From Desulfobulbaceae bacterium (GTDB lineage: Bacteria > Desulfobacterota > Desulfobulbia > Desulfobulbales > SURF-16), in the NCBI GenBank assembly GCA_020444175.1, contig JAHLLM010000010.1, positions 62,001 to 126,000 of the forward strand: a stretch of DNA of 64,000 bases, written 5' to 3'. This document shows positions 103-27,058 of the stretch, in pieces (positions within the stretch are counted from its first letter, which is position 1; every line of letters starts with the position of its first letter). The translations under genes were made by a program, and so were the position numbers. The notes beneath the pieces are model-generated. The model did no database searches, had not been told where the DNA came from, and worked only from the letters and a program-made list of their open reading frames with translations.

Positions 103-837
103 ATGAAAGTAAAACGTAAAATTATAGAAATTAATGAAGAGCTTTGCAATGGCTGTGGTCAATGTATTGTTGATTGTGCTGAATCTGCTCTTGAAATTGT
201 CGATGGCAAGGCCAAAATAGTTGCGGAGAAATATTGCGACGGCTTAGGCGCCTGTATGGGCGGCTGCCCCACCGGAGCACTCAGTCTGGTGGAACGGGAA
301 TGTGAAGATTTTGACGAAGAGGCAGTGGAAGAGCTTTTAAAGAGCAAAAAGGAGGTGGAGACAAAACAAACACCATGCGGTTGTCCATCCAGTGCGTTAC
401 AGACTTTTGCTGCTCCTCCCCAGAGCCCGTGTCAGGCTGCAAACAAACCGAAATCCATGGCTACCGGACAGTCCGCTTTGACCCACTGGCCTGTGCAGAT
501 TCGTCTTGTCCCAGCTTCAGCCCCGTTTTTAAAGGGCGCGGACCTGCTCATCGCCGCGGACTGTACCCCCATTGCCCGGGCAAGTTTTCATGAGGATTTC
601 ATGGCCGGCAAGGTGGTTCTGATGGGCTGCCCGAAATTTGATGACAGGGAGAGCTATGTTCAGAAATTTGCCGAGATATTTGCATCCGCGGATATCAAGT
701 CGATCACCAGCGTTATCATGGAGGTGCCCTGCTGCGGTTCAATGCGCGGCATTATTGACCAGGCCATGAAACAGGCAGGAAAGAATATTCCCGCAAAAGA
801 GGTGGTGTTATCCACCCAGGGGCAAATACTGAGCTGA
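103..837 (+). CDS. Ferredoxin-type 4Fe-4S binding protein
   Basis: A 244-residue soluble iron-sulfur protein. The N-terminus holds a complete 4Fe-4S motif (C15, C18, C21, C25) followed by a second one spaced C45-x5-C51-x3-C55-P, in which the usual middle cysteine is Leu48. This incomplete second motif, reading CDGLGAC, is common in this type of anaerobe ferredoxin protein, so it may hold a 3-cysteine cluster or use a distant ligand. The region after residue 90 is Ala/Pro-rich, then a folded C-terminal part carries further cysteines (MGCPKFDD, PCCGSM), which may bind metal. No signal peptide, so cytoplasmic. The likely role is electron transfer; the partner is unknown and no adjacent oxidoreductase on this strand helps. 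It ends just before a bidirectional terminator shared with pyk. Confidence 0.8.
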   Translation: MKVKRKIIEINEELCNGCGQCIVDCAESALEIVDGKAKIVAEKYCDGLGACMGGCPTGALSLVERECEDFDEEAVEELLKSKKEVETKQTPCGCPSSALQTFAAPPQSPCQAANKPKSMATGQSALTHWPVQIRLVPASAPFLKGADLLIAADCTPIARASFHEDFMAGKVVLMGCPKFDDRESYVQKFAEIFASADIKSITSVIMEVPCCGSMRGIIDQAMKQAGKNIPAKEVVLSTQGQILS

Positions 838-855
838 GAAAATAATTTCTGATTT

Positions 856-898
856 TTAAATGAACCACCCGGTATTTGATCCGGTGTGGTTCATTTAA
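856..898. terminator. Bidirectional terminator between the ferredoxin gene and pyk
   Basis: An inverted repeat pairs TTAAATGAACCAC-CCGG with CCGG-TGTGGTTCATTTAA (one bulged base) around a short loop. Its A- and T-rich outer ends give a run of T on either strand, and it sits between two convergent genes, so it probably stops transcription from both sides. Confidence 0.75.
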
Positions 899-918
899 TT
901 TGATGTGGTAAAGAAGTA

Positions 919-2319
919 TCAAATGATACGAACCTGAACGGTCTCAATATAATGTCCCTCAACCAGGATATCGGACAAGACAATGATCCGGTCACCGGCT
1001 GAGATGGTTTTTTTTCGTTTTAACTGCTCAATGGCGCGCTGGATGGTTATTTCCGGGTCTTTGGAAAATTTAATCAGATGGGCGTGGATGCCCCAGTGGA
1101 TGCCAAGCCGCCGGCGCACATGGGTGGTGTTGGTGAAGGCTAAGATTGGCGAAATAGGGCGGCATTTGGAGAGCAATGCTGCGATGAGACCGCGCCTGGT
1201 TATCACTAAGGTCCCTACGGCCTTGAGATTGTTGTTGAGGATGGCAGCGCTTCGGGCAATCTCTTCCTTGGAATTATCTGAAACCGCAACCCTTACCGTT
1301 GTATCCGACTTCATCTTCCTTTCAATCCTTCCGGCCACAGTATCCATGGTTTCCAGGGCCTTAAGGGGATGCTTGCCGGTAGCTGTTTCGCCGGACAGCA
1401 TGATGGCGTCAGCCCCCTGCAGGACGGCATGAGTTATGTCGGTTACCTCAGCCCGGGTTGGCGTAGGGTTGATGATCATTGATTCCAGCATATGGGTGGC
1501 AACCACAACGGGTTTGCCGGCTTTCCGGCATTTCCGAATAATTTCGTCCTGAAGCAACGGTACCTCTTCATAGGGTAACTCAGCCCCAAGGTCGCCTCGG
1601 GCGATCATGATGCCGTCGGTCACGGAGATAATTTCGTCCAGTTGAGGGATGGCCTCTGCACTTTCAATCTTGGCCAGGATATCAATGGGGGCTTTTTTCT
1701 CCTCAAGGTAGTTTTGCAGGGTGGTAACGGAAGAGGCTCCCCGCACAAAGGAAAGGGCAATGAAGTCAATTTTGTTTTCAATGCCGAAGTTGATGTCCTG
1801 CCAGTCCTTGTCGGTGATCGAAGGCAGATCTGCACTCTTGCCCCTGATATTGATATGACGCCGGGAGGTAAGTATCCCGTCGTCCAGGCTTTCGCAGAGG
1901 ACGTCTTTTCCCTTAATATCTCTGACCTTGAGGCTCAGCATGCCGCCGTCAATAAGGACTGTGTCATCAACTTCCACTTCCTTGACAAAACCGTCGTAAC
2001 TCACCTCCACGCAGCGGGGTTCAAGCTCAGCCTGGTGTCTGATGGTCAGGGTCAGAGGGTCACCTTTTTTGAGAAGGATATTATGCCGGACATCACCGGT
2101 TCGGACCTCGGGCCCTTTGGTATCGATAAGTATGGCAATGGGAGAACCGGTTTTTTTATTGATCCTCTTGATGCTTTGAATAACACTCCTGTGCCACTCC
2201 AAGGTGCCATGGGACATATTGAGCCGGGCCACGTTCATGCCTTTTTCAGAAAGCTGACGGAGGATTTCGAACCGGGAGGTCTTGGGGCCTATGGTACAGA
2301 TGATTTTTGTTGCGCGCAT
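919..2319 (-). CDS. pyk: Pyruvate kinase
   Basis: Converts phosphoenolpyruvate and ADP to pyruvate and ATP, the last step of glycolysis. At 466 residues it has the usual length. It opens with the family start MRATKIICTIGP and shows the substrate-binding NMSHG, the active-site segment around ILAKIESAEA with its catalytic lysine, IARGDLGAELP, and MLESMI followed by TPTRAEVTD and LSGETATGKHP. The C-terminal allosteric domain is present from about residue 345. Together with pckA at 18 kb it makes a PEP/pyruvate/oxaloacetate node. Upstream on the minus strand, a small AGACTG-AAA-CAGTCT hairpin (2384-2398) lies in the leader and could be an operator, which is speculative. Confidence 0.96.
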   Translation of the reverse strand: MRATKIICTIGPKTSRFEILRQLSEKGMNVARLNMSHGTLEWHRSVIQSIKRINKKTGSPIAILIDTKGPEVRTGDVRHNILLKKGDPLTLTIRHQAELEPRCVEVSYDGFVKEVEVDDTVLIDGGMLSLKVRDIKGKDVLCESLDDGILTSRRHINIRGKSADLPSITDKDWQDINFGIENKIDFIALSFVRGASSVTTLQNYLEEKKAPIDILAKIESAEAIPQLDEIISVTDGIMIARGDLGAELPYEEVPLLQDEIIRKCRKAGKPVVVATHMLESMIINPTPTRAEVTDITHAVLQGADAIMLSGETATGKHPLKALETMDTVAGRIERKMKSDTTVRVAVSDNSKEEIARSAAILNNNLKAVGTLVITRRGLIAALLSKCRPISPILAFTNTTHVRRRLGIHWGIHAHLIKFSKDPEITIQRAIEQLKRKKTISAGDRIIVLSDILVEGHYIETVQVRII

Positions 2320-2573
2320 GGTGGTCGGGGTGTTCTAAGAAAGATTTGAGAAAAAAAGCCTTGTTCCGAATACGGCTTATGGGAGACTGAAACAGTCTGA
2401 TTTTATATATATCATTGCGGAATAGCAATATAAAAACAGGCTCAAGGAGTCAATGAGAGGCATCAATTACACAGCGATCCCATTTTGACTGACTTGCATA
2501 AGAAAAGTTGCAGGGGCGGATAAAAGCAGCCAGTGACAAGTATGTACAAGGTCCCCATGCTGGTTACTAACTA

Positions 2574-3239
2574 TTACTCGGCCAGGATGAAATCTGTGAT
2601 GTACGGATTTTCCTCCATTTCCAGAGCAATGGTTGAGGTTGGAGTTTCCCCGTAATCGTGGCCGGGATGGATTATTGTCTCCTTTGGCAAAACAAGCAGC
2701 TTTTCTTCAAGGGATTTCAGGAGGGCGTCAAGGGAACCGCCGGTCAGGTCAGTCCTGCCAACGTCTCCCACAAACAGCGTGTCACCTGTAAAGAGATTAC
2801 CTTCTACAAAAAAGCAGACCGAACCGGGAGTATGTCCCGGTGTGTGGATGACCTTGATTCGCAGATTCCCAACTTCAAGTTCATCGCCGTCATGCAGGCG
2901 AATATCAGCAGGAGAAGGAGCTGGGAGCCCGAGCTCTTTCTTTGATTTTTCCCGGACCTCCTGTATGGAAAAAAAGGTGTCATCCTCTTCATGCATGCAG
3001 ACCGGCACGGAGAACATCTCCTTTAATTCCTGGTTGGCAAGCACATGGTCGGCATGTCCGTGGGTGTTTAAAATGGAAACAAGCTCCACATTTTCGTCTT
3101 CGATCAACCCTTTAATTCTTTGCACTTCACCACCTGGGTCGATAAGAGCGGCTTTTTTTGTCTGCGGGCAGATAAGTAAATAGGTGTTCACCTTGTACGA
3201 CCCGATGCAAAGCTGCTTTATGATCACATTCTGTTTCAT
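2574..3239 (-). CDS. Metallo-beta-lactamase fold hydrolase, glyoxalase II-like
   Basis: A 221-residue zinc hydrolase of the glyoxalase II/YcbL group. It has the metal-binding THGHADH motif (residues about 60-66), a second ligand region HTPGHTPGS, the bridging aspartate in FTGDTLF, and a final HPGHDYGET. These are all the expected dinuclear metal ligands. Glyoxalase II hydrolyses S-lactoylglutathione, but many short members of the family act on other thioesters and the substrate here is unknown. The start codon overlaps the end of the ydbL gene by 4 bp (ATGA-type), so it is probably translated from the same message as the ydbH-ynbE-ydbL genes. Confidence 0.88.
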   Translation of the reverse strand: MKQNVIIKQLCIGSYKVNTYLLICPQTKKAALIDPGGEVQRIKGLIEDENVELVSILNTHGHADHVLANQELKEMFSVPVCMHEEDDTFFSIQEVREKSKKELGLPAPSPADIRLHDGDELEVGNLRIKVIHTPGHTPGSVCFFVEGNLFTGDTLFVGDVGRTDLTGGSLDALLKSLEEKLLVLPKETIIHPGHDYGETPTSTIALEMEENPYITDFILAE

Positions 3240-3613
3240 TTCTGGTACCAGTTTCCGGATTCATCCTGCAGCCAGGTGCCTGGTTTGGCTATTTCAACTA
3301 TCTGTTTGGCCCTGCGTTCGCCAACCAGTTGAGGGCTGACCCCCTGCTGTTTTGCAATGGCCGTGTAGACTTTGAGCCTGTCCTGGTTCTCTTCTGCAAT
3401 AAGATTTTTTTGATCAGGCGAATTTTTTCTGAACTCAAGAAAACCTTTATTGTTTTCGCCAATCACTCCTTGATCAAGCAATGTATTGATGGCCGGAATG
3501 CGAGCCAGCATTCTTTCCTTTATGCCTTGCTGGGCAAGGCAGGGAAGAGCAAAAAAATATGAGATCAATAAGAGTAGAAGAATGAAAGAATGTCTGTGAG
3601 TCAGGGTACGCAT
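3236..3613 (-). CDS. ydbL: YdbL family periplasmic protein (DUF1318)
   Basis: A 125-residue exported protein. A signal peptide (hydrophobic residues 10-24, cleavage near PCLAQQG) precedes a small domain with the YdbL-type pattern: ARIPAINTLLDQGVIGENNKGFL, then QGVSPQLVGERRAKQI and a C-terminal GTWLQDESGNWYQK (segments quoted in part). In Escherichia coli YdbL is encoded with YdbH and YnbE and is thought to help their assembly. The same order, ydbH-ynbE-ydbL, is seen here. The name rests on pattern recognition plus gene order; both agree. Confidence 0.8.
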   Translation of the reverse strand: MRTLTHRHSFILLLLLISYFFALPCLAQQGIKERMLARIPAINTLLDQGVIGENNKGFLEFRKNSPDQKNLIAEENQDRLKVYTAIAKQQGVSPQLVGERRAKQIVEIAKPGTWLQDESGNWYQK

Positions 3614-19917: not shown

Positions 19918-21597
19918 ATGGATACGACGAATTTCCATACCATAAAACCCGCGGACCTTCCTTCTCCGCCTCAGACAGCCATCCGCATTATGAGGGCCTG
20001 CTCCAGAAAGCGGGTCAATAATGAAGAGTTGAGCAGCCTGACCCAGAATGATCCCCTGCTTACTGCGGAATTACTGCGCATTGCCAACTCCTCTTTTTTC
20101 AGCCACGGCAGGTCCGTTGAATCGATCAGTCGAGCTATCCAGGTGCTCGGTCAACGCGCCTTGCGAAATCTTGCCCTGTGTCTTTCAGTGCGTGATGCCC
20201 TGAAAGATTGTGTCATTCCTGGATTTGATCTTGATCTGTTCTGGGAGGACGGGTTGCGCAGGGCTGTGAGTGCAAGACTTCTTGGCAGACTTGCCTCCCT
20301 TGACGCTGATGAGTGTTTCACGGCAGGTTTGCTCCAGGACTTCGGACTTCTTGTTCTTTTCCATCTCTTTCCTGAAAAGGGAAATGAAGCAGTAGAGATG
20401 CGAAAAATGACTCCAAGTAGACGACGTAACCGCGAAAAGGCTATTTTTTGCATAACACACGACCGGGTGGTTGAGCAGCTTGCCGAGGAATGGCAACTTC
20501 CAGAAAATCTGTCCCTGGCTCTGGGCAGTCACCACAAGAAAAAAGATGAAGGTCAGGCAAGGAGTCCGCTCAGCCGTGTTCTGCAGGGAGCCGACTGGTT
20601 GAATGCTCTTTTTACTGTTGATAACAAGAAGGTGGTATTAAGCCGGTGCAATATGCTCTTTTTTAAGGGCTTCGGGCTTGACCGGCAGAAAACCGAGGAG
20701 TACATCGCGTCCATCCCTTCGCAAACAGAAGAGGCGGCGGATGCCCTCGGTCTGCGCATCGGTGAGCAGGAAGATTTCAGCGATGTCCTGCGTTCAGCCA
20801 ATTTGCGGCTGATTGAAGATAATGTCAGTTATCAGGAACTTGCCTGGCGTCTGAAAAAAACCTTGCTTGAACGGGATAGGCTGGCTTCCGAACTTCGCAA
20901 GGAACTTAAACTGGCCCGCGAGGTGCAGAAAAGTTTACTGCCTGTTTCCCGTGAAGGATTGCCTGTGCATGGCATCAATATCTCTGCCCGCCACCTTTCA
21001 GGAGATTTTTATGATTATTTCAGTCTGCCTGACGGGCGTATCATTTTCAATCTTGGCGACGTGTCCGGTAAGGGGTCACACGCAGCACTGCTGATGGCGA
21101 AAATAAGTTCTGTATTTCGCTGTCTGGGGCGAGTGACAAACTCGCCCGGTGAACTTCTCGAACGTATTAACAGTGAACTTTGTGCTACCTCCATTCGGGG
21201 TATGTTTGTGACCATGGTTGCTGGTATCTATTCACCGGTTGCCGGCATAATCAGCCTGGCCAATGCCGGGCATCCCCCCCCTTTGCTGGTGAATCGAAAC
21301 GGGCATTTCAAGGAGTTTCCTGCCGAAGAACCGCCTTTAGGTATTCTCCCGGGGCAGAAATTCAGGGAACAGAATGTTGAGCTTGGCAATGGCAGCTTGT
21401 ATATCTATTCAGACGGAATCACCGAAGGGCGCGACAGCGAGAATCAGCCTCTTGGGATTAAGGGGTTGCTTGATCTCATTAAAAGACACGGGAATCTTCC
21501 CAGACAGAAAAGGCTTGTCGAGATAGTCAAGCCCTTGCGGGAAAGGCCGCTGAAAGACGATATTACCCTGCTCGTGGTGGAGATGCCGGATGGGTGA
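19918..21597 (+). CDS. HDOD domain - PP2C (SpoIIE-type) phosphatase
   Basis: A 559-residue soluble regulator. Residues about 10-215 form an HDOD domain (SPPQTAIRIMRAC, then NDPLLTAELLRIANSSFF and AIQVLGQRALRNLAL). A helical linker (about 290-335) leads into a SpoIIE/RsbU-like serine phosphatase with metal ligands in SGDFYDYF and GDVSGKGSHAALLMA, plus NAGHPPPLL and YSDGITEGRD. Phosphatases of this type remove phosphate from STAS-domain proteins. The next genes encode an RsbW-like kinase (overlap 8 bp) and a STAS protein, so the three should form a phospho-switch. No clear Shine-Dalgarno precedes the ATG. Confidence 0.92.
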   Translation: MDTTNFHTIKPADLPSPPQTAIRIMRACSRKRVNNEELSSLTQNDPLLTAELLRIANSSFFSHGRSVESISRAIQVLGQRALRNLALCLSVRDALKDCVIPGFDLDLFWEDGLRRAVSARLLGRLASLDADECFTAGLLQDFGLLVLFHLFPEKGNEAVEMRKMTPSRRRNREKAIFCITHDRVVEQLAEEWQLPENLSLALGSHHKKKDEGQARSPLSRVLQGADWLNALFTVDNKKVVLSRCNMLFFKGFGLDRQKTEEYIASIPSQTEEAADALGLRIGEQEDFSDVLRSANLRLIEDNVSYQELAWRLKKTLLERDRLASELRKELKLAREVQKSLLPVSREGLPVHGINISARHLSGDFYDYFSLPDGRIIFNLGDVSGKGSHAALLMAKISSVFRCLGRVTNSPGELLERINSELCATSIRGMFVTMVAGIYSPVAGIISLANAGHPPPLLVNRNGHFKEFPAEEPPLGILPGQKFREQNVELGNGSLYIYSDGITEGRDSENQPLGIKGLLDLIKRHGNLPRQKRLVEIVKPLRERPLKDDITLLVVEMPDG

Positions 21598-22021
21598 CGT
21601 GCTGGTTTTTAAGGGTGTTTTCCGGGCACAACCGGAAATGCTGAGCACTCTTCGTGCTCGGTTGCGGGAGATAGCAGCAGACTGCGGGTGCAGCGGGGAG
21701 AATGTCGATTGCCTGGTGCTTGCTGTCAATGAGGCATGCAGTAATATTATCCGACACGGCTACGGTGAGAAAAAGAGGGGTGAAATTATTATAGAAATTT
21801 TCCATAATAAAAATGAACATGAGATACGCATTCGTATTCAGGATTTTGCCCCCCATGTGGATTTAAGCCGCATAAAAAAAAGAGATCCAGCAGTTGTAAA
21901 GCCAGGAGGACTTGGTCTTTATTTTATTCAGAAGGTAATGGACAAAGTGGAATTTCTCGAACCTTCGGATGGCAAAGGGAATGTTCTTGAACTTGTGAAA
22001 AAGATCGGTCGCAAGGCCTGA
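21590..22021 (+). CDS. RsbW-like serine kinase (HATPase_c anti-sigma-factor type)
   Basis: A 143-residue GHKL-fold kinase. The N-box reads VNEACSNIIRHGY (residues about 45-57), the D-box region IRIQDFAPHVD and the G-box KPGGLGLYFIQKVMD. Proteins of this class phosphorylate a serine on a STAS partner or sequester a sigma factor. The start overlaps the end of the phosphatase gene, and the STAS gene follows after 126 bp. The kinase's natural partner is therefore probably that STAS protein, an inference from gene order. Confidence 0.9.
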   Translation: MGDVLVFKGVFRAQPEMLSTLRARLREIAADCGCSGENVDCLVLAVNEACSNIIRHGYGEKKRGEIIIEIFHNKNEHEIRIRIQDFAPHVDLSRIKKRDPAVVKPGGLGLYFIQKVMDKVEFLEPSDGKGNVLELVKKIGRKA

Positions 22022-22147
22022 AACTGCTGCTGTTAATTAAACAAGATGTTGCTTCAAACCCTGCGGAATGCACTGAGTCCTCAGAAGAATTCCCCTCTGT
22101 TTTTCGTGGAGTTTGCGGCTTGAAAAAATGTTGCCCAGGTGGACTGC

Positions 22148-22510
22148 ATGACAAAAAAAAACAAATATTATCCTGTTAACCGGCATGGTCCTGTAACCGT
22201 TATCTCTCTGACCGGAGAGATAGATATGCAGACCTCTCCGAATGCACGGGAGCAGATGCTTGATATTTTGAAGAAGAAAGGTTCCCTGCTGGTGGATCTG
22301 TCAAAGACAAAATACATTGACAGCTCAGGTGTTGCAAGCCTTGTCGAAGGGTTGCAGCTGGCAAAAAGCAGAAAACTTTCTTTTGCCCTTGTTGAGGTCA
22401 GCCATTCCGTAAACCAGGTCCTGCAGCTTGCCCGTCTTGATAAAGTATTTCCAATCCATCAGACTCTTGAACAGGCACTGACTGCCATGGGAACCCAGGA
22501 ACAGGGATGA
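22148..22510 (+). CDS. STAS domain protein (anti-sigma antagonist / MlaB-like)
   Basis: A 120-residue single STAS domain. The conserved phospho-acceptor loop reads YIDSSGVASLVEG, with the serine pair at the position phosphorylated in SpoIIAA/RsbV. The start is ATG 22148 with AGGTGG 5 nt upstream (an in-frame GTG lies at 22139). It overlaps mlaE by 4 bp. In E. coli the Mla transporter has its own STAS subunit, MlaB, bound to the ATPase MlaF. This protein sits in the same operon position but keeps the phosphorylatable serine, and a kinase and phosphatase are encoded just upstream. Confidence 0.9.
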   Translation: MTKKNKYYPVNRHGPVTVISLTGEIDMQTSPNAREQMLDILKKKGSLLVDLSKTKYIDSSGVASLVEGLQLAKSRKLSFALVEVSHSVNQVLQLARLDKVFPIHQTLEQALTAMGTQEQG

Positions 22511-23295
22511 AGAGGTTCTGTGAACAACTGGGGCGCAGGACCGTAGTTTCCCTTGAAGAACTCGGCTATGTTGCCTCATTGTGCCTGGAAAGCGTTCTCT
22601 GGCTTTTTCTTGGACCAAGACGGAGGCAGCCGGTACAGACTTCCGCTGTTTTTCGCGAGGCCATGGAAATCGGGGTAATGGCCATCCCCATAGTGTCCAT
22701 GCTCTGTTTTGCAGTTGGAGTCATGCTTGCCATACAGGGTATTGAAACCTTGAAGGTCTTCGGCGCCGAGAGTAAGGTTGTGATCGGCATTGCTCTTTCG
22801 GTTACCAGGGAGTTTTCTCCCCTTATTGTTGCCATTCTTGTGGCTGGGCGTTCAGGGTCCGCTATTGCGGCCCGCATCGGCACCATGCATGAATCTCAGG
22901 AAATAGACGCCTTGCGGGTTATCGGCATTAATCCCATTCGATATCTTTCCACCCCTCTTCTTCTTGCTGCACTTATTTCCGTTCCCTCGCTGACAGTACT
23001 CGGTGATCTGGCCGGCCTGTTCGGGGGAGCTCTTTTTACCAGTCTGAAATTAAATGTTCCTGTGACTGTTTTTTTTCAACGTTGCCTTGATATTCTTTCC
23101 GTGGACGATATAGGTCAGGGGCTTATAAAAAGTATTATTTTTTCCTTGATTATCGTCCTGATCGGTGTGAGTAACGGCTTCCAGGTAAGGGGAGGAGCCG
23201 AGGGGGTAGGGCGGGCGACGACACGGTCCGTGGTCTTATCCATCACCTTTATTATTCTTGCCGACCTCATTTTTACCTTTTTCATGAACAGGTGA
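22507..23295 (+). CDS. mlaE: MlaE-type ABC transporter permease
   Basis: The membrane subunit of the Mla/Mkl-type importer that moves phospholipids between outer and inner membrane. It has 262 residues and about six membrane segments. Typical motifs are FREAMEIGVMAIPIV, the EQ-like loop SVTREFSPLIVAILVAGRSGSAIAARIG (quoted in part), MHESQEIDALRVIGINPIRYL and GVSNGFQVRGGAEGVGRATT. Start overlaps the STAS stop codon (ATGA), and its own stop overlaps mlaF, so the three are translationally coupled. Confidence 0.94.
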   Translation: MKRFCEQLGRRTVVSLEELGYVASLCLESVLWLFLGPRRRQPVQTSAVFREAMEIGVMAIPIVSMLCFAVGVMLAIQGIETLKVFGAESKVVIGIALSVTREFSPLIVAILVAGRSGSAIAARIGTMHESQEIDALRVIGINPIRYLSTPLLLAALISVPSLTVLGDLAGLFGGALFTSLKLNVPVTVFFQRCLDILSVDDIGQGLIKSIIFSLIIVLIGVSNGFQVRGGAEGVGRATTRSVVLSITFIILADLIFTFFMNR

Positions 23296-23297
23296 TT

Positions 23298-24083
23298 ATG
23301 GACCACCCTGCCATTGAAGTAAACAGCTTATCCGCCCATTATGGTGATCGGCTTATTCTCGATAATGTTACTCTCACGGTCGACTATGGTGAGATTCACG
23401 TTATCATGGGCGGCAGTGGTTCCGGTAAATCAACATTGCTCCGGCATCTTCTCGCGCTCAACCGGCCTACTTCCGGTTATATCAAGCTGCTCGGCAGGGA
23501 TATAAACAGTATTTCCGAAATTGAGCTTGATGAGTTGAGAAGGGAAATGGGAGTCGCCTTCCAGGGGGGAGCACTTTTCGGTTCCATGACTGTTGGAGAA
23601 AATATCCAGCTCCCCTTGAAAGAACATACCAGGCTCAACGAGTCCACCATGCGTATCATGAGCAGGATGAAGCTTGAGGTAATGAACCTGGCAGGCTTTG
23701 AGGATCTCATGCCTTCCGAGTTGTCCGGCGGAATGATAAAACGGGCCGCCCTGGCCAGGGCTGTTGTCATGGACCCGAAACTGCTTTTTCTGGATGAACC
23801 GTCGGCAGGGCTTGATCCGGTTGTGGCCGCCGAGCTTGACCAGTTGATCCTGCGTCTCCGTGAAGCCATGAATATCACCATTGTGGTTGTCACCCATGAG
23901 CTTGAGAGCGCTTTTACCATAGCAGACCATATCACCGTTCTCGACAGTGGCAGAATTTTAATAACAGGAGCAGTCGATGAAGTGCGAAACAGCAGCAATC
24001 AAAGGGTGCAGGATCTTCTCATGCGCAGGGTGAGCATGGCTGTGGTTGATGGTGATGCATACCTGCAGCGCTTGACCGGCTAA
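23298..24083 (+). CDS. mlaF: MlaF-type ABC transporter ATPase
   Basis: ATP-binding subunit of the lipid importer. Walker A GGSGSGKST (near 38-46), Q-loop in VAFQGGALFGSMTVGENI, the signature LSGGM in place of the usual LSGGQ, and Walker B LLFLDEPSAGLDP followed by the switch histidine in VVTHELES. The atypical signature methionine is normal for MlaF. The start may be ATG 23298 or GTG 23292; the latter overlaps the mlaE stop. Confidence 0.95.
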   Translation: MDHPAIEVNSLSAHYGDRLILDNVTLTVDYGEIHVIMGGSGSGKSTLLRHLLALNRPTSGYIKLLGRDINSISEIELDELRREMGVAFQGGALFGSMTVGENIQLPLKEHTRLNESTMRIMSRMKLEVMNLAGFEDLMPSELSGGMIKRAALARAVVMDPKLLFLDEPSAGLDPVVAAELDQLILRLREAMNITIVVVTHELESAFTIADHITVLDSGRILITGAVDEVRNSSNQRVQDLLMRRVSMAVVDGDAYLQRLTG

Positions 24084-24149
24084 GTGAGGTGGAAAATGTG
24101 AGGGGAGAGGTGCGGGTTGGCAATCGTCATTTGGAGAAGCTGAGAATTT

Positions 24150-25094
24150 ATGAAAAGAGATAAGATAAATTATTTCGGGGTCGGGCTTTTTGTAATGGGC
24201 ATGTTTGTCGTGCTTATGCTGACGCTGCTTAAATTGACGGGGAGAGACGCTGACAGCGTTTCCTATCTCGTTCAATATAAAAGTATTGCCGGAATCAGAG
24301 AGGGATCATCGGTTACTCTGAGCGGTTATAAAATTGGACAGGTGGCTTCAATTATACCGATGCCGAAAAGTGATATTGGTGGCTATCAGCTGGAACTTTC
24401 AGTGCGCGGGGATTGGAAAATACCTGGGGACAGTACGGCTTCCATTGTCAGCCCGGGGCTTCTGTCCGAAAAGCAGGTCAATATCACGCCGGGAGGAAGT
24501 GCTGCGTATTTGTCACCTGGCGGGAGTATCAAAGGCGTGGAAAAAGTTAATGTGATGGCTGCTATTGAAAATATGGCCAATCAAATGAACGAATTGACGG
24601 AAGATTCCATAAAACCGCTTATCGCGAGTATCGGGGATTCTGTTACATCTCTCAGTGCCGACCTCCATAATGACCTGCCCCAGGTCATTACAAACCTCAA
24701 TACTCTTATCGAAAATTTAAATTCAAGCGCAACGAGCCTGAGCCACATGATAAGTCCGCAAAATACCGAGCATGTCAACAGTTTTTTTGCCAACGCTGAC
24801 AGCATTGCCAAGGATCTCTCCGGTTTGACCGACGATATCAGTTCCCTGCGCAGCCAGCTGGAACTTTTTGTCGGGGAGGCCCATCAGGTTGTGAAGGAAA
24901 ACCGGGTTAACATTGAAAGGACTGTCTCCGGACTTGCCGATCAGACTGATGTTCTGGGGCTTCATCTGAATACAACCCTCTATCACCTTGATGAGACCAG
25001 TCGAAATTTGAGTGAATTGAGCAGGGCTTTGCGTGAAAATCCCGCCCTTTTGATTCGAGGTACCAAAAAAGAAAATGGGGGAGAGGAAAAATAA
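24150..25094 (+). CDS. mlaD: MlaD-type MCE domain lipid-binding protein
   Basis: A 314-residue periplasmic protein anchored by one N-terminal membrane helix (about 10-29). The MCE domain follows (about 38-115) with the pattern YKSIAGIREGSSVTLSGYKIG and SIVSPGLLSEKQVNITPG (both in part). A long helical tail (130-300) is longer than in E. coli MlaD (183 residues) and is like the Mce/PqiB-type members that build a helical tube. It starts 66 bp after mlaF and ends exactly overlapping the next start codon. Confidence 0.93.
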   Translation: MKRDKINYFGVGLFVMGMFVVLMLTLLKLTGRDADSVSYLVQYKSIAGIREGSSVTLSGYKIGQVASIIPMPKSDIGGYQLELSVRGDWKIPGDSTASIVSPGLLSEKQVNITPGGSAAYLSPGGSIKGVEKVNVMAAIENMANQMNELTEDSIKPLIASIGDSVTSLSADLHNDLPQVITNLNTLIENLNSSATSLSHMISPQNTEHVNSFFANADSIAKDLSGLTDDISSLRSQLELFVGEAHQVVKENRVNIERTVSGLADQTDVLGLHLNTTLYHLDETSRNLSELSRALRENPALLIRGTKKENGGEEK

Positions 25095-25711
25095 TGAATG
25101 GATACAAGTTGCTTTCCATAATGCTTCTCTCTCTGCTCTGTATGTCGATAGTGTCCTGCATGACGCAGCAATCTCTGCCACAGGACCATTATTATCGATT
25201 GCCGGATCAGCCGGGAGAGAAGAGGGCGCATGTATTGTTTAAGGGTGTTCTCGGAGTGGGAGTCTTTAAAGCTGACGGTATGCTCAATGACAGATCCATC
25301 CTGACTGTTGATCCGGAGCATCCTGTAGAAATCTACCGTTCTGATTATCATCTCTGGCAGGAAGTGCCCGGAGTACTGATTCAGAAAAATATGACCTCCT
25401 ATCTGCAGAGAGTCGGAGCAGCGGGGCAGATTGTTTTATTTGAACCCGGCATGGATGTTGACCGGCTTGTTTCCGGACGTCTCCTTCGTTTTGAAGTATT
25501 AGAAGGGAAAGGTGGAAACGAGGTAAGGGTGCATATGGAGATTTCGGTTTTCCAAAAAGAGAACAGGGACCGAGTGTTCCTCGAGACCTATCGTGTGACG
25601 ATTCCCTGTCGTGATACCTCCATGGTCGCTGCCGTGGAAGGGCTGGGCGAGAGCCTGAAGCAGATATATGACCGTTTTCTGCGTGATGCAGGCGCGCGTA
25701 AATTGCAATAG
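25094..25711 (+). CDS. PqiC-like ABC-transport auxiliary lipoprotein
   Basis: A 205-residue outer-membrane lipoprotein with lipobox IVSC (cysteine near residue 22). The mature domain starts YYRLPDQPGEK and contains YRSDYHLWQEVPGVLIQ, typical of the PqiC/YmbA family (DUF330-like), proposed to dock the MCE tube to the outer membrane. Its start overlaps the mlaD stop by 1 bp. No mlaA or mlaC is present in this operon, so this lipoprotein probably replaces that outer-membrane arm. Confidence 0.88.
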   Translation: MNGYKLLSIMLLSLLCMSIVSCMTQQSLPQDHYYRLPDQPGEKRAHVLFKGVLGVGVFKADGMLNDRSILTVDPEHPVEIYRSDYHLWQEVPGVLIQKNMTSYLQRVGAAGQIVLFEPGMDVDRLVSGRLLRFEVLEGKGGNEVRVHMEISVFQKENRDRVFLETYRVTIPCRDTSMVAAVEGLGESLKQIYDRFLRDAGARKLQ

Positions 25712-25798: not shown

Positions 25799-27058
25799 TT
25801 AGAAATTTGGTCCGGTCCATGGACCACCGCAGTTGATATTTTCGCCGCCATGGTAGTGGCAGCCGAAACAACCTTGAGGTCCGGCATGGCTGTTGGTATG
25901 ACAGCTGAAACAGAAATCGCTTTCACAAAAATATTGTTCGCCCCCGCCACTGCAACCGTCCACCTTGTTGTTGTTTACTTCCTTGCGTAAAAGATATGTT
26001 GACGGTCTGTTCCCAGTAGTAAGGATGCTGCCGTGGGGATCATGACAGTCCAGGCAGGAAAGGACATAGTTATTCTGGACAGGCGCGGTATTATATGGGG
26101 CGATGATCGTGCCGATACAGCCGGTTGCGTTACCACCAACGCCGAATAATCTCGCTCTTTCTCCGTGCATATCCCCTGATGATCCCCAGTCAATGGCAGT
26201 GAGATAGCCGTTTGTGGTATTGGGGTTCATGGAGGTCACGCCTGGTGTCGAGACAGGGACCTCATACTGATGACAGTCAAGACAGAAGGCGTTGTAATCC
26301 GTTTGAAGCGAACCGTCATGCAGTACGACGCCTCCGGGCTCGTAGGTGCTGGTTGATCCGTAATAATAAGGCGGGCGATATGAGGTGTAATTGCTCATGC
26401 GCTCGTTAGCGGCATCCCCCCATAGATTGTCATGGTCGGAGGGCTTTGAAATCGTTGTATAATCAGCATCACTCGGATGGTCCTTGCGGTTTTTGGCCAG
26501 ATGGGGATTGTGGCAGGCTACGCAAGGGTTGGAACTCTGTTTGAAAAAAGAAAATTTACTTTCCGCAAAGTTCTGAATGTCATAGAGGTTATGGTAGGAG
26601 GTTAAATTAAAGGCGCCCAGAATATCTGTTACCCAGTTTGTGGTATAGCCGCCAAAGGTGTTGGAGTACTGATAGTTATTGATGCCTCCGCCGTTTTGCA
26701 GTCCGCCGCTGCTGACATGGCAATAAAAACAGAAATTATCCGTCATGACATAGGGACCGAATTGAACGCTGTCATTAAAGCCGTCACTGAATACGGCAAA
26801 AGGCGAAGCATCTCCTGATACCGGCAAGGGCTCTTCGCCATCTACACTGGCATGCTGTTCATGGCAGTGACTGCAGTTGCCTGCGGCATAACCGGTCACA
26901 GAGCTTCGCGCCACCCCGCCTCCTGAATCGCCATGGGCGGATTGTGTATAAGAACCGCCGGCAGCCTCAAGGGGAAGGAGGATGCCGGTGCAGAAAAAAA
27001 GTAGTAAAAAAGAGTTGGTCGCTTTGTGAGAATTTTTTCCTTTTAACTCTGATTTCAT
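25799..27058 (-). CDS. Seven-haem c-type cytochrome
   Basis: 419 residues with a signal peptide (hydrophobic 17-33) and seven CxxCH sites: CSHCH, CFYCH, CVACH, CLDCH, CLDCH, CFSCH and CFGCH. It is rich in Gly, Asn and Tyr, like large surface or periplasmic multihaem cytochromes of metal- and sulfur-respiring bacteria. Unlike the one at 6877 it has no discoidin insert, but two long haem-free spacers. It is convergent with the Mla operon and shares no obvious link with it. The electron donor and acceptor are unknown. Confidence 0.88.
   Translation of the reverse strand: MKSELKGKNSHKATNSFLLLFFCTGILLPLEAAGGSYTQSAHGDSGGGVARSSVTGYAAGNCSHCHEQHASVDGEEPLPVSGDASPFAVFSDGFNDSVQFGPYVMTDNFCFYCHVSSGGLQNGGGINNYQYSNTFGGYTTNWVTDILGAFNLTSYHNLYDIQNFAESKFSFFKQSSNPCVACHNPHLAKNRKDHPSDADYTTISKPSDHDNLWGDAANERMSNYTSYRPPYYYGSTSTYEPGGVVLHDGSLQTDYNAFCLDCHQYEVPVSTPGVTSMNPNTTNGYLTAIDWGSSGDMHGERARLFGVGGNATGCIGTIIAPYNTAPVQNNYVLSCLDCHDPHGSILTTGNRPSTYLLRKEVNNNKVDGCSGGGEQYFCESDFCFSCHTNSHAGPQGCFGCHYHGGENINCGGPWTGPNF

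Follow-up and report, generated by a model that had tools for sequence, protein, structure and literature searches.

What does a bacterial partner switch do in an operon for a lipid transporter? The question is raised by seven consecutive genes in a 64,000-nucleotide stretch of a Desulfobulbaceae genome (GCA_020444175.1, contig JAHLLM010000010.1, positions 62,001 to 126,000; hereafter the window), which code on the plus strand for an HDOD-PP2C phosphatase, an RsbW-like kinase, a STAS protein, MlaE, MlaF, a long MlaD, and a PqiC-like lipoprotein (Table 1). An earlier note on this DNA had described such a one-direction operon with these domains, and the open reading frame positions and the Pfam and NCBIfam matches agree with it. 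We propose, with a probability of about 0.72, that the genes form a partner-switching module acting, as its output, on an MCE-type ATP-binding cassette (ABC) transporter of lipids and not on a sigma factor, with the phosphatase turning it on and the kinase turning it off. With such a kinase/phosphatase set beside the lipid pump, lipid movement between the membranes probably has a built-in on/off switch.

The link between MCE lipid transporters and a partner-switching phospho-relay is real and conserved, and is unreported in the open-access literature searched (subscription papers and preprints were outside its scope). MlaB is not mentioned there together with RsbW, and MlaB phosphorylation, the STAS domain, and a kinase are brought together only in Kolich 2020 (PMC7367683) and one review. 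The earlier note knew of no such control of Mla; phosphorylation of MlaB had already been hypothesized by Thong 2016 (PMC5016091) and Kolich 2020, but the passages concerned name no kinase. Where Kolich 2020 treats the point, experimental evidence for MlaB phosphorylation is stated to be lacking, and the regulation of MlaB, and hence of inter-membrane lipid transport, is given as an open question.

Conservation of the gene linkage

The seven-gene order phosphatase-kinase-STAS-mlaE-mlaF-mlaD-lipoprotein is present in all four of the nearest MlaE relatives (59 to 63% MlaE identity), named genomes whose records are titled as Gammaproteobacteria metagenome-assembled genomes (MAGs). Within the window's own phylum, the six-gene core phosphatase-kinase-STAS-mlaE-mlaF-mlaD occurs in three genomes and kinase-STAS-mlaE-mlaF-mlaD-lipoprotein in one, MlaE identity there being about 40%. 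The class to which one of these core genomes belongs carries the STAS type in 19 of 56 genomes, with the order phosphatase-kinase-STAS-mlaE-mlaF at ten further loci and kinase-STAS-mlaF at three; mlaE lies downstream in two of these three, and in the third the contig ends. The order kinase-STAS-mlaF-mlaE-mlaD is thus among the alternatives that retain the link. Because the order recurs both in the nearest relatives and in distant genomes of the same phylum, the association is not due to chance, and chance adjacency was ruled out on this ground. The earlier note's reading would have been refuted had the phosphatase and kinase genes not been kept beside mla in relatives, and the note had looked to an order conserved among Desulfobacterota; these genes recur beside mla in distant genomes with differing gene orders, and a conserved order is seen in the own-phylum core and the ten loci of one class.

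Two genomes have other arrangements. G446 has a canonical mlaF-mlaE-mlaD-STAS-mlaA-mlaC operon, with a divergent kinase gene upstream and a phosphatase gene downstream. In G550 the STAS gene is the fifth of mlaF-mlaE-mlaD-mlaC-STAS, the same order as E. coli mlaFEDCB, and an overlapping phosphatase-kinase pair, with no STAS gene of its own, lies 2.9 Mb from the mla operon. The sensor part of the phosphatase varies among relatives, being either HDOD or GAF, as is expected of an exchangeable input joined to a fixed switch.

Profiles of the two proteins were scored over 395 genomes of the phylum, and the same seven genomes exceed both, with STAS scores of at least 118 bits (the gap lying between 118 and 82 bits) and kinase scores of at least 117 bits (117 versus 99 bits). 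Five of the seven fed the profiles, and the independent part of this result is therefore that the sole two additional genomes agree.

The operon was likely acquired laterally, to judge from the distribution of its closest homologues. No close copy of the STAS protein is found in 21 genomes of the window's own family, whose MlaE proteins are far more distant than those of the Gammaproteobacteria MAGs, and inheritance within the family is thus disfavoured. A close MlaE was not found in plasmid records.

A candidate phosphosite on a predicted MlaB-like subunit

The three switch proteins have the features of an RsbU/V/W-type system. Ser62 of the STAS protein aligns with the phosphoserine of SpoIIAA/RsbV, and the same serine is present in all 11 kinase-associated STAS proteins. 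The GHKL kinase has an intact N-box (E48, N52, and H56) and G-box (PGGLG), unchanged in nine of nine aligned cassettes, and the phosphatase contains the metal-binding PP2C motifs DVSGKG, NAGH, SDGITE, and DDIT. The closest structures are RsbW for the kinase (6m36 is the top PDB match for the kinase family profile) and SpoIIAA/RsbV-type proteins for STAS. A kinase tree does not firmly separate the cassette kinases from other kinases: a branch with the cassette kinases to one side appears in 46% of the bootstrap trees.

Neighbouring genes overlap by 8 bp (phosphatase/kinase), 4 bp (STAS/mlaE and mlaE/mlaF), and 1 bp (mlaD/lipoprotein). The gap between the kinase and STAS genes is 126 bp, as the earlier note had it, if translation starts at the ATG at 22148, and 117 bp from the GTG start; a terminator scan listed no terminator-like site within the gap, and over the whole region it gave no excess of such sites relative to shuffled sequences. 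An AlphaFold2 model of a read-through kinase-linker-STAS chain has a predicted template modelling score (pTM) of 0.73, which is compatible with docking but not decisive, and Foldseek matched this model to separate folds only.

It might be argued that the STAS protein serves constitutively as an MlaB-like subunit and that the kinase and phosphatase have a different STAS protein of the cell as their target, given that at least three further STAS/kinase loci exist in the genome (on contigs C77, C66, and C39). These loci have their own kinases, however, and those on C66 and C39 also their own phosphatases; the kinase and STAS types of the window co-occur in seven of seven genomes, and the window STAS protein retains the RsbV-type phosphosite. 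We regard this explanation as very improbable. The C77 locus (L012, approximately 743 to 3315) has in a row genes for a response regulator, a STAS protein, an RsbW-like kinase, and a cellulose synthase-like glycosyltransferase, and is a further case in this genome of a partner switch adjoining an enzyme gene. The C66 and C39 loci (L013 and L014) are phosphatase-kinase-STAS sets, each followed by a CheA-like gene.

That the STAS protein is an MlaB-like subunit, as the earlier note had inferred, is supported by three lines of sequence evidence that agree in suggesting that it acts on MlaF: the MlaF extension, the helix-2 residues, and the occupation of the MlaB slot in G550. The STAS gene adjoins mlaE or mlaF in the window and in the related loci. 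The C-terminal extension of MlaF, in which an aromatic residue is followed four positions on by a hydrophobic one, is present in all 11 of these systems but in only 1 of 63 other MlaF proteins (Fisher 3e-12, uncorrected for relatedness and with the criterion chosen after viewing the tails). An Ala at +4 from the serine is common to all mla-linked stand-alone STAS proteins, E. coli MlaB included, and a Glu at +8 to all of them except E. coli MlaB; both residues of the window protein also occur in the mla-linked STAS proteins that have no kinase. Typical RsbV-type proteins have Gly and Ser at these positions, with Ala at +4 in none and Glu at +8 in one. The helix that follows Thr52 of E. coli MlaB is reported to make the most contacts to MlaF in the MlaFB structure (PMC7367683). 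A STAS tree splits the two labelled sets in 100% of trees, the other mla-linked STAS proteins being unlabelled in it.

Proposed output and direction of the switch

The sequences themselves show the genes, the unbroken active-site motifs, the conserved serine, the conserved linkage and co-occurrence, and the MlaF extension; binding, phosphorylation, direction of effect, and signal we infer as follows. Unphosphorylated STAS protein would occupy the MlaB position on MlaF, maintaining the transporter in its assembled, active state. The RsbW-like kinase would phosphorylate Ser62, at the centre of the predicted MlaF contact face, and may additionally hold the unphosphorylated STAS protein; phosphorylation would remove STAS from MlaF and turn transport down. 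The PP2C phosphatase, under the control of HDOD (or GAF in relatives), would strip the phosphate and turn transport on, making it the activator. This direction is argued by analogy with E. coli, in which MlaB is reported to be required for assembly and to keep MlaF on MlaE, and the T52E substitution to weaken MlaF binding (PMC7367683).

Several observations weigh against this reading. The E. coli T52A variant is reported to stay bound with its ATPase activity abolished (PMC7367683 and PMC5016091), and the role of Thr52 in E. coli therefore exceeds phosphorylation and is not that of a simple phospho-switch. Deletion of the E. coli MlaF extension, which also serves MlaF dimer assembly, is described as leaving MlaB binding intact (PMC7367683). 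Over its whole sequence the window STAS protein resembles SpoIIAA/RsbV more closely than it does E. coli MlaB; of the 21 places at which one class has the same STAS type, 6 have no mla neighbour; and three arrangements (L107, L211, and L212) have no adjacent phosphatase gene.

An ordinary RsbU/V/W switch acting on a distant sigma factor or other protein, with the transporter genes merely cotranscribed, would account for the resemblance of the three proteins to RsbU, RsbW, and RsbV and for their closest structures, and two genomes (G601 and G602) have a phosphatase-kinase-STAS trio with no adjacent mla genes. BLAST searches that took the sigma factors of the genome itself as queries, however, reveal no sigma gene at 14 related loci or in the window, and the genome's four sigma-70 family matches resemble RpoD, a second RpoD-like protein, FliA/WhiG, and RpoH, with none above the SigB/F/G cut-off. 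A sigma-factor output thus has no candidate in the genome, the window, or the 14 loci, and the sigma-only alternative that the earlier note had raised finds no cognate partner. Moreover, in G550 the MlaB slot is taken by this STAS type with no adjacent kinase, the MlaF proteins of these systems bear the MlaB-contacting extension, and none of 13 ordinary phosphatase-STAS-kinase trios sampled in the phylum lies beside mla. We consider this explanation unlikely.

The trios of G601 (contig C70) and G602 (contig C2), at loci L205 and L206, adjoin an outer-membrane efflux-type gene, and it is possible that the switch has been reused there for another envelope system. The same broad STAS type is also encoded upstream of RND efflux-like genes for a membrane fusion protein and a pump (L209 on G602 C24 and L210 on G601 C12), with no kinase gene nearby.

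Information could also flow in reverse: MlaF would capture the STAS protein in an idle or assembled transporter, and free STAS would then report the transporter's state to the kinase, which would control another target. Every component for an exchange of STAS between MlaF and the kinase is present, and partner switches with non-sigma outputs are known, as in HsbA and SypA. No second kinase target is apparent beside the genes at the loci examined, however, and the transporter itself is the simpler output; we think reverse flow quite unlikely.

We favour transport itself as the output, and it seems reasonably likely that these operons represent a conserved class in which a dedicated serine kinase/phosphatase pair toggles a lipid ABC ATPase via a removable STAS subunit. 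For MlaB-type subunits, whose phosphorylation was only hypothesized in the E. coli work, the operons point to a candidate for each of kinase, phosphatase, and phosphosite, and they offer natural genetic variants for testing. If the proposal is true, ABC transporters would gain a new mode of regulation, in which outer-membrane lipid supply is switched post-translationally by way of a detachable subunit of the ATPase, and partner switching would have a new output.

The transporter and its relation to known systems

The permease MlaE, the ATPase MlaF, and the MCE-domain protein MlaD are all encoded in the window operon, but no protein of the operon reaches the NCBIfam equivalog cut-off for MlaF, MlaD, or MlaB, and the transporter is thus a relative of the E. 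coli-type Mla system and not the same. Neither mlaC nor mlaA is present in the operon, and MlaD is about twice the length of the short MlaD proteins. Judged on gene content, the transporter is Mla/Pqi-chimeric and Mpc-like and not canonical Mla, which corrects the earlier note's description of an Mla operon. Contig C54 encodes another MlaE and, close to it, the only MlaA match of the genome, and the window system is therefore a second MCE transporter.

At the C54 locus (L001 and L186), mlaE, mlaF, and mlaD form a further set close to mlaA, and no STAS gene was seen there; of the two MCE transporters in the genome, only one is accompanied by switch genes. Convergent with the window operon, on the minus strand (25799 to 27058), is a gene for a multihaem cytochrome-like protein of 419 amino acids with many CxxCH motifs.

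Table 1. Genes and predicted functional sites of the window operon
Feature	Position	Strand	Length (amino acids)	Basis
HDOD and SpoIIE-type PP2C protein, predicted sensor-phosphatase	19918..21597	+	559	Pfam HDOD 9e-47, SpoIIE 1e-42
RsbW/SpoIIAB-type serine kinase	21590..22021	+	143	Pfam HATPase_c_2 8e-27
STAS protein, predicted MlaB-like subunit and kinase substrate	22139..22510	+	123	Pfam STAS 5e-19; TIGR00377 above cut-off
Ser62 codon (IDSSG), predicted phosphosite	22322..22324	+		Aligns with E. coli MlaB Thr52
mlaE-type permease	22507..23295	+	262	Pfam MlaE 7.6e-68
mlaF-type ATPase	23292..24083	+	263	ABC_tran; top NCBIfam match MlaF 1.8e-60, below equivalog cut-off; PDB MlaF matches
MlaF C-terminal extension with Tyr257 and Leu261	24024..24080	+		Alignment with E. 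coli Tyr261 and Leu265, MlaF-MlaB interface
mlaD/MCE protein with long C-terminal part	24150..25094	+	314	Pfam MlaD 4e-12
PqiC-like lipoprotein	25094..25711	+	205	ABC_trans_aux PF03886 1.6e-6, just above cut-off

The closest parallel in transporter composition is Brucella abortus Mpc (PMC12436622), which likewise has MlaE and MlaF homologues, a long MlaD, a PqiC-like lipoprotein, and a STAS domain associated with the permease, in an operon free of mlaC and mlaA. The Mpc STAS domain is fused to the permease, whereas that of the window is encoded by a separate gene with a 4-bp overlap, and the four-gene Mpc operon has neither the kinase nor the phosphatase gene. E. coli MlaFEDB shares the MlaE, MlaF, and MlaD homologues, a Ser or Thr at the Thr52 position of the STAS protein, and the MlaF C-terminal extension. 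In contrast to the window operon, E. coli mlaFEDCB includes mlaC and has no kinase or phosphatase gene, and E. coli MlaB is a minimal version of the fold, the window STAS protein being full-length and RsbV-like. With RsbU-RsbV-RsbW and SpoIIE-SpoIIAA-SpoIIAB the window operon shares a PP2C phosphatase, an HATPase_c_2 serine kinase, and a DSSG-bearing STAS substrate, but it differs from them in having no sigma factor, in its ABC lipid transporter output genes, and in the residues of STAS helix 2.

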